Positions 10,835-32,227 of a stretch of DNA of 64,000 bases are shown here, piece after piece. The DNA comes from Bdellovibrio svalbardensis (GTDB lineage: Bacteria > Bdellovibrionota > Bdellovibrionia > Bdellovibrionales > Bdellovibrionaceae). Position 1 is the first letter of the stretch. Each line of letters begins with the position of its first letter. The notes beneath the pieces were generated by a model. It did no database searches and was not told where the DNA came from. It was given only the letters and a program-made list of their open reading frames with translations. The stretch is taken from the NCBI RefSeq assembly GCF_029531655.1, contig NZ_JANRMI010000002.1, positions 124,001 through 188,000 on the forward strand, written 5' to 3'. Made by a program: the position numbers and the translations under genes.

Positions 10835-10846
10835 TTGTCTGTTTGC

Positions 10847-10896
10847 ACTCCGACTTCGTCGGAGTAGAACTGTCTGCACTCCGGCGAAGCCGGAGT
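10847..10896. repeat. Two 19-bp perfect palindromes (ACTCCGRC-family)
   Basis: ACTCCGACTTCGTCGGAGT (10847-10865) and ACTCCGGCGAAGCCGGAGT (10878-10896) sit 31 bp apart, each flanked by TGC and AGA. The arms differ at a compensating base pair, so the hairpin rather than the sequence is kept. The same palindrome recurs at 15413-15458, indicating a dispersed REP-like family. Confidence 0.85.
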
Positions 10897-10935
10897 AGAA
10901 TTCCTTTTGGGAAAAAATAATTTCCCCGTAGGAGA

Positions 10936-19874: not shown

Positions 19875-19994
19875 AAGTCGGTGCGGAAGTCGGTGCGGAA
19901 GTCGGTGCGGAAGTCGGTGCGGAAGTCGGTGCGGAAGTCGGTGCGGAAGTCGGTGCGGAAGTCGGTGCGGAAGTCGGTGCGGAAGTCGGTGCGG
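19875..19994. repeat. Minisatellite: ten exact copies of a 12-bp unit
   Basis: The unit aagtcggtgcgg is repeated ten times without a mismatch over 120 bp. It sits in the 569-bp gap (19693-20261) between the HNH gene and the trypsin-like gene. Long frames across it encode only monotonous tetrapeptides (KSVR on plus, APTS on minus) and lack other support, so it is treated as non-coding. I see no gene or RNA in the rest of the gap. Confidence 0.95.
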
Positions 19995-30291: not shown

Positions 30292-31305
30292 GTGACAATC
30301 GAACATTTTCTAACAATATGGAACCAGCACAATACAGTCATCATTGAAGGGCTTGTTGGGCTTATTATATTACTATCCTTGTTTCTCGGATACCGATCTT
30401 TTTTCGGCAATAAATCTGCGGGCGGGGAGCATGGTGTTGGTGGCAGTCTTGATACTGCACAGTTGGAAAAAACACTGCAAAAAATTTTAGATGCTCAAGG
30501 GACCGCGGCGAAGCACACTGGCGCTCATCATGAAGACGCGTCAATGGATATCGATGTCGCAGGCATGAGTGAAAAATCCGCATCAGCCGTTTCTGCGGGT
30601 GCCGCAGGTGGCGCTGTTTCTGCCGATGTAGAAAAACTCAGAAGCGTTGTTTCTGAAAATCAAAAAACCATCGAAGTTTTGCAAAGTCAGTTGGCAGAAG
30701 CCAAAGCTCAGGCCGCCTCAGCGCAAGCCGGGGCTCCGGCAGCGGCGGACTCTGGCATGAGCAGTGCGGAAAAAGAAGATCTCAGTGGCAAGATTCGCGA
30801 TTTGGAATCTCGCCTGGCTGAATACGAAATTATCAGCGAAGACATCGCCGATCTTTCTAGATATAAAGACGAAAATGAAGCCTTAAGAGCTGAACTTGAA
30901 GCTCTTCAAAAGGCCGCGGCAGCAGCTCCGGCGGCAGCACCAGTGGCTCCGGTTGTAGCAGAGGCAGCTCCGGCTCCAGAACCAGTTTCGACACCGGAAC
31001 CTGAACCGACTCCAGTTGCTGAACCTGTAGTTGAAGCGGCTGCATCCACTGAAGATATGGTCGATGCCGCACTTGCAGAGGCTGCAGCACAGATGGCTCC
31101 AGAGCCAGCTCCAGCAGAAGCACCAGGTGCTGATTTGATCGATGACGAACTGATGAAGGAGTTCGCAGCCGCAGTTGAGGGTCAAAAGACCATCAGCAAA
31201 GTTGGTGAGAAAGCCGGTTCGGGTAAAGTGGCTGCTGATAAGAAGACTGACGAGAATGAGCAGTTGATGAACGAGTTTGAAAACTTCGTGTCTAAAAAGT
31301 CCTAA
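30292..31305 (+). CDS. Membrane-anchored Ala/Pro/Glu-rich protein
   Basis: A 337-residue protein with one N-terminal membrane helix (TVIIEGLVGLIILLSLFLGY) and no cleavage site, so it is anchored with a long cytoplasmic or periplasmic tail. After a Gly-rich segment, residues 110-210 form coiled coil (VEKLRSVVSENQKTIEVL, then DLESRLAEYEIISEDIADLS). A low-complexity Ala/Pro/Glu stretch (PEPEPTPVAEP) and a short charged C-terminal region follow. The start is a GTG at 30292 with a weak ribosome-binding site. Similar architecture occurs in cell-pole or envelope organisers, but no domain is recognised and function is unknown. The stop codon is the first unit of a repeat array. Confidence 0.7.
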   Translation: MTIEHFLTIWNQHNTVIIEGLVGLIILLSLFLGYRSFFGNKSAGGEHGVGGSLDTAQLEKTLQKILDAQGTAAKHTGAHHEDASMDIDVAGMSEKSASAVSAGAAGGAVSADVEKLRSVVSENQKTIEVLQSQLAEAKAQAASAQAGAPAAADSGMSSAEKEDLSGKIRDLESRLAEYEIISEDIADLSRYKDENEALRAELEALQKAAAAAPAAAPVAPVVAEAAPAPEPVSTPEPEPTPVAEPVVEAAASTEDMVDAALAEAAAQMAPEPAPAEAPGADLIDDELMKEFAAAVEGQKTISKVGEKAGSGKVAADKKTDENEQLMNEFENFVSKKS

Positions 31306-31434
31306 ACCTTCGGTTTAAGAAAATCCTAAGCCTTCGGCTTAAGAAAGTCCTAACTCGTCGGTTTAAGAAAAAGCTAAGTCAGAAGCTTAAAGCCCTAAGC
31401 CTTCGGTGTAAGAAAGTGCTAAACCTACGGTTTA
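31303..31434. repeat. Array of six 15-bp mini-palindromes at 24-bp period
   Basis: Starting with the stop codon at 31303, six units begin TAA at 31303, 31327, 31351, 31375, 31396 and 31420 (period 24, once 21). Most fold as short hairpins with compensating changes: TAAACCTTCGGTTTA, TAAGCCTTCGGCTTA, TAAACCTACGGTTTA. Units three to five carry mismatches. Every TAA is in the frame of the preceding gene. The array fills most of the gap before the HEAT-repeat gene; there is no T-run, so it is not a standard terminator. Confidence 0.85.
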
Positions 31435-31492
31435 AGAAGAAGCTTTCAGCGTAAGAAGTTCTAAGTGGTCCGTTTTTGGAAAGAGTGAATCA

Positions 31493-32227
31493 ATGAAAAC
31501 TAAAATTGTCGCCTCTCTTTTAATTGCAGGGTTTTCTTCAAGTGCTTTCGCAGCCCTGACTAAACCTTCATCCAGCACTTTAACTTCTGCGGCTGAGATG
31601 TTGAAACTTCCCACAGAAAACCGCAGAAATGCGTTGATGGGGAAGGGTGATAAGTTCTATAGCTCATTCATCTCTATCGCCTTTAATGACGCCCAACCCA
31701 TGAGCCTTCGTTGGAGAGCCTTGATGGCAGCAGCGGAAGCGGGCGGCGATAAAGCAACGGCCGATTTGATGAAAGCCGGCGATCATTCCCAGTGGTACAT
31801 GAGAAACGCAGCCTTGGTTGCACTTTCTGAAGTGAACCCATCTCAAGGCGTAAAGCTCGCGCAAAAGTTGATCAAAGACAAAGCCCTGGTGGTTCGTTCT
31901 GCCGCGGTGGAAGTTTTGGACAAAAGCGCGACCGCCGAAGTGCGTGACCTTTTGTGGGAAGAACTCAATCAGACCTACAACTTTAAAGGCGCCCAAAGTC
32001 TTTGGATTCGCCACCAAATCGTGGAAGTTTTGGCCAAGAAGCCCAAGGATCACGAACTTAAAATCTTCGCCAGCCTGCTTTCAGATAAAGACACGCGGGT
32101 TCAATTGCCAGCGGTGGGCGGTTTAGAAAAACTGACCGGCACAAAATTGGGCGAGGGTCCCATGAAGCAATCAGAGCTGATCGGTCTTTGGAAGAACTAC
32201 GTTAAGAAAGAAAACATCGCTCTTTAA
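31493..32227 (+). CDS. Exported HEAT-repeat protein
   Basis: A 244-residue protein with a signal peptide (LIAGFSSSAFA). The rest is helical repeats of HEAT/PBS-lyase type: MSLRWRALMAAAEAGGDKA, WYMRNAALVALSEVNP, KALVVRSAAVEVLDKSA, and DTRVQLPAVGGLEKLTG. Such repeats form protein-binding solenoids. Being exported, it probably works in the periplasm. It is followed by a terminator and shares its strand with the anchored protein upstream across a 187-bp gap filled by the mini-palindrome array. The partner is unknown. Confidence 0.82.
   Translation: MKTKIVASLLIAGFSSSAFAALTKPSSSTLTSAAEMLKLPTENRRNALMGKGDKFYSSFISIAFNDAQPMSLRWRALMAAAEAGGDKATADLMKAGDHSQWYMRNAALVALSEVNPSQGVKLAQKLIKDKALVVRSAAVEVLDKSATAEVRDLLWEELNQTYNFKGAQSLWIRHQIVEVLAKKPKDHELKIFASLLSDKDTRVQLPAVGGLEKLTGTKLGEGPMKQSELIGLWKNYVKKENIAL

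Follow-up and report, generated by a model that had tools for sequence, protein, structure and literature searches.

A stop-led tandem array of near-palindromes in Bdellovibrio svalbardensis, probably expanded from the 3' end of the adjoining gene

We analyzed a stretch of 64,000 nucleotides from the genome of Bdellovibrio svalbardensis (the window), in which two co-directional genes are separated by a row of short, near-palindromic units (Table 1). The upstream protein has a hydrophobic N-terminal segment followed by a coiled-coil and an Ala/Pro-rich middle. It matches no Pfam family, and its C-terminus, ENFVxKKS*, is conserved among the orthologues of the genus. The 3' end of its ORF reads ...GAAAACTTCGTGTCTAAAAAGTCC-TAA.

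Table 1. Positions of the array and its flanking genes, numbered within the window
Feature	Position	Strand	Remarks
Upstream gene	30292..31305	+	337-aa ORF; orthologues in 24/24 genomes of the genus
Unit 0, putative repeat source: last 8 codons of upstream gene (GAAAACTTCGTGTCTAAAAAGTCC)	31279..31302	+	TRF start 31280; rank 7 with unit profile
Six clear tandem units, TAARCCTTCGGYTTAAGAAARTCC type	31303..31438	+	starts 31303, 31327, 31351, 31375 (21 bp), 31396, 31420
Two decayed units, starts 31439 and 31462	31439..31485	+	31439 is the best profile match after the six units
Downstream gene (HEAT repeats, signal-like N-terminus)	31493..32227	+	adjoins upstream gene throughout the genus

The clear units are spaced by 24, 24, 24, 21, and 24 bp from 31303 to 31420. 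Their starts can be read directly and agree with a preliminary description of six units with a 24-bp period and one step of 21. Tandem Repeats Finder (TRF) likewise reports a period of 24, 6.8 copies, and a score of 120 for an array at 31280-31438, which begins inside the upstream gene. Identity at a lag of 24 is 0.67 in the array versus 0.28 for the window background, and by both measures head-to-tail units of constant length are present above chance. The array had been placed at 31303-31434, which takes in the starts of the six units but omits the two decayed ones that extend it to about 31485. In the decayed unit at 31439 the stop is gone, with GAA as the first codon in place of TAA, and the one at 31462 carries GGAAAGAG, the Shine-Dalgarno-like stretch of the downstream gene. 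All six clear units do open with a TAA that is in frame with the upstream ORF, as had been noted, and seven such codons lie between 31303 and 31462. They share one frame because the TAA-to-TAA steps, or their sums, are divisible by three, and the shared frame is thus no separate line of evidence.

The array occurs once. Similarity searches and exact or one-mismatch searches of the bacterium's own genome (3.9 Mb, 10 contigs) gave no second copy; a genome-wide search of this kind had been proposed in the preliminary description. The upstream gene and the HEAT-repeat gene are neighbors in the same order in all 23 congeneric species, none of which has the array, so that its copy number there is zero. 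The junction was read directly in 21 of the 23; the other two, G004 and G015, were judged from match coordinates, which leave no room for an array. From stop to start the congeners have gaps of about 3-39 nt (typically a stop, 3-8 nt, and ATG), compared to 187 nt in the window species, and an insertion or expansion in the lineage of the latter therefore follows. The expectation that relatives would share the array thus fails at the species level. The longest congener gap, about 39 nt, is found in G010 (G010:C36, L035, just before position 1501), where GTTCCT and AGGAAC can pair across the HEAT gene's ribosome site. Matches to the array DNA in the genome and 60 relatives were scattered, 17-46 bp long, with E values from about 6e-4 to 0.1, and were taken as chance resemblances to short A-rich stretches. 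A search of the available literature on tandem or palindromic repeats in Bdellovibrio found nothing relevant.

Other repeats are present in the window. At 10839-10900 there are two tandem 31-bp units with a perfect palindrome, ACTCCGACTTCGTCGGAGT and ACTCCGGCGAAGCCGGAGT, with the loop inverted. Its 19-bp core, ACTCCGNCTTCGNCGGAGT, occurs 38 times in the genome (0 for a reversed control pattern) and is present in half of the genus's genomes (12 of 24), with 17 occurrences in G005. This palindrome looks like a dispersed, REP-like element with matched arm changes (A-T, G-C, and C-G at the variable pair). In the same genome (G000), six transposase-like genes score above the curated cut-off for Y1_Tnp (PF01797), for example C1:376227-376562 and C4:566385-566726, and these are candidates for the enzyme that spreads it. 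A 12-bp unit, AAGTCGGTGCGG, is present in ten perfect copies at 19875-19994 inside a short ORF, and another, AAATAGAGCAGC, in nearly four copies at 2387-2432, just upstream of an ORF at 2455.

The units resemble the end of the upstream gene. Compared position by position, unit 1 (TAAACCTTCGGTTTAAGAAAATCC) is 67% identical to the last 24 coding bases (GAAAACTTCGTGTCTAAAAAGTCC). When the roughly 64,000 window positions outside the array were ranked with a profile made only from the units, the gene end came 7th. Conversely, with a profile of 27 columns, covering the stop as well, from the gene ends of 19 relatives, the gene end itself came first in the window, and the units at 31396, 31351, 31303, and 31327 took ranks 2, 7, 8, and 29 of about 64,000. 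In both directions, the likeness falls at the phase predicted for a duplicated gene tail. The earlier suggestion of repeated duplication of the final 24 bases, stop codon and all, is thus supported by the relatives' gene ends, by the phases of the units, and by the junctions that lack an array. Two such junctions, ...AAAGAGCTAAACCATG in G014 and ...AACTTCGTTTCTAAGAAG... in G005, indicate the source of the two palindrome arms: TAAAC at and after the stop, and CTTCGTTT from the Phe-Val-Ser codons. The end of the last unit (31462), GGAAAGAGTGAATCAATG, is similar to AAAGAGTTAATCCATG in G018; the similarity is weak, with P between 0.02 and 0.58 across relatives, so that this unit can only tentatively be taken for the original gene end.

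Each unit can be drawn as a stem-loop, TAAACC-TTC-GGTTTA, with a 6-bp stem and a TTC triloop, rather than a UUCG tetraloop. Perfect stems are confined to units 1, 2, and 6 (-4.7, -7.1, and -3.7 kcal/mol). Clean hairpins number three of eight, and the remaining units lie between 0 and -2.8 kcal/mol. For units 3, 5, and 7 the folding energy is 0 to -1.1 kcal/mol, and unit 8 adopts a different fold. The stems had been described as changing on both sides together, and pairing is indeed retained above random. In units 1-6, 33 of 36 stem cells are paired, whereas random placement of the same substitutions gives 27.5 on average (P 0.003). Covariation across all nine sequences, with the gene end counted among them, is higher than in nearly all shuffles. 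Both tests ignore the shared ancestry of the units. However, the covariation is mainly at one or two positions, and few stems are perfect. Most of it is an A-T/G-C change at stem position 4, where G-T intermediates are also present; at position 6 there are single both-side changes, in decayed units. When whole 3' arms were permuted among units, P was 0.4.

The retained pairing is a modest signal with two possible readings, weak selection on the palindrome or correction of one arm from the other by template switching. Template switching between the arms of short inverted repeats is outlined as a mutation process in E. coli and yeast (PMC7202029, PMC8604942). Such correction would give paired changes with no need for a function.

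The divergence among copies bears on their age. Units 1, 2, 3, 5, and 6 are mutually 71-88% identical (12-29% different), whereas 58% of 88 fourfold-degenerate sites in the HEAT gene differ between the window species and G005, the nearest relative compared. With a Jukes-Cantor correction, the separation of the copies comes to roughly one-fifth as deep as the split between the two species. Since the units have diverged much less than the fourfold sites, a fairly recent, unconstrained expansion is sufficient to account for them.

Functions proposed for the array in the preliminary description (stabilizing the 3' end, blocking RNases, binding a protein, or guarding against read-through) find no support, given that no congener has the array, the genome has a single locus, the array is no more stable than its shuffles, and the coding strand has no T-run. 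If the array were a functional RNA, its small hairpins slowing 3'-to-5' RNases or giving each half of an operon mRNA a stability of its own, then its place between two co-directional genes, the retained pairing, and the ability of units 1, 2, and 6 to fold alone would all fit. We nevertheless consider this unlikely, because five of the eight units barely fold, dinucleotide shuffles of the whole 171-nt array fold just as stably (z = -0.49), an Rfam covariance-model search of the array gave no match at E up to 1, and the same gene pair does without the array in 23 congeners. Nor does the array contain an intrinsic terminator (a GC-rich hairpin plus T-run) on the + strand; the scan gave only weak - strand matches, as many as chance alone would give. 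Binding of a dimeric regulator or nucleoid protein to a cluster of DNA sites would explain why palindromic units recur at a regular 24 bp, about two helix turns, and why their TAA...TTA ends are nearly invariant. This reading is very improbable: the 21-bp and 19-bp steps break the helical phase, no such site was found elsewhere in the genome with exact, one-mismatch, or similarity searches, and congeners lack the array.

Two further readings concern translation. Selection for multiple stops as a guard against read-through would account for the seven same-frame TAA codons, but in-frame stops follow automatically from the unit length, a single extra stop would be enough, and every congener does without; TAA alone is an efficient stop. 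We give this reading hardly any credence. Slippage on AAA-AAG before the stop could instead shift some ribosomes into the -1 frame and give a fraction of the upstream protein a basic, leucine-rich, repetitive tail. Frame 0 is stopped in all six clear units, and from the AAAAAG stretch onward the -1 frame meets no stop until a TAA near 31450. It reads KVLNLRFKKILSLRLKKVLTRRFKKKL... and would encode an extension of some 50 residues made up of 8-residue repeats. That openness comes by construction, however, from a unit with no stop in the -1 frame, and 71% of simulations are likewise open. No frame of the three has an excess of third-position substitutions, and conservation scores are as high in frame 0 as in the -1 frame (P 0.018 for both). 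Programmed -1 frameshifting calls for an X-XXY-YYZ heptamer and a conserved downstream frame; the heptamer here is T-AAA-AAG, not A-AAA-AAG, and the relatives have no array. A frameshift is accordingly most improbable; if it did take place, the tail would have been born from a duplicated stop-codon region.

Taken together, these observations lead us to favor, with considerable though incomplete confidence, the view that the 3' end of the upstream gene expanded in tandem in this lineage alone and has since drifted. The array is most likely an ordinary copying accident and not a functional RNA device, and it is probably neutral. We infer that about 24 bp, running from the last codons through the stop to a few bases past it, would first have been duplicated, then amplified via slippage or unequal exchange, after which the copies would have drifted. 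The upstream protein still terminates at the first TAA, and the ribosome site of the downstream gene is retained in the last, decayed copy. At each head-to-tail junction, a copied TAAAC would meet a copied CTTCGTTT, creating the palindrome. Near-palindromes of this type themselves promote slippage, and template switching from arm to arm can change both arms together, so that pairing could be partly conserved with no selection on RNA. Two observations count against neutral expansion: the stem pairing beyond random could reflect selection on the palindrome, and the last unit (31462) is only weakly like the ancestral gene end. The array may also have uncoupled two genes that lie nearly back to back in related species.

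As a clean example of how a duplicated gene tail alone can yield a row of hairpin-like, stop-led units, the array cautions against taking paired arms and in-frame stops, where a tandem repeat is young, for marks of a selected RNA. In comparison with known systems, it shares with REP/BIME elements the arrangement of short palindromes between co-directional genes, but it is derived from the adjoining gene and occupies one locus, and the many dispersed genomic copies typical of REP/BIME were not found, only the window locus. As outlined in PMC7202029 and PMC8604942, correction of quasipalindromes by template switching would also change both arms of a short inverted repeat together; the difference is that it is a mutation process, which for the array we infer. 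The array is like a bacterial minisatellite or VNTR formed by slipped-strand duplication in having head-to-tail units of constant length at a single locus, lineage specificity, and imperfect copies. It differs in that its unit spans a gene end plus stop codon and happens to be palindromic.
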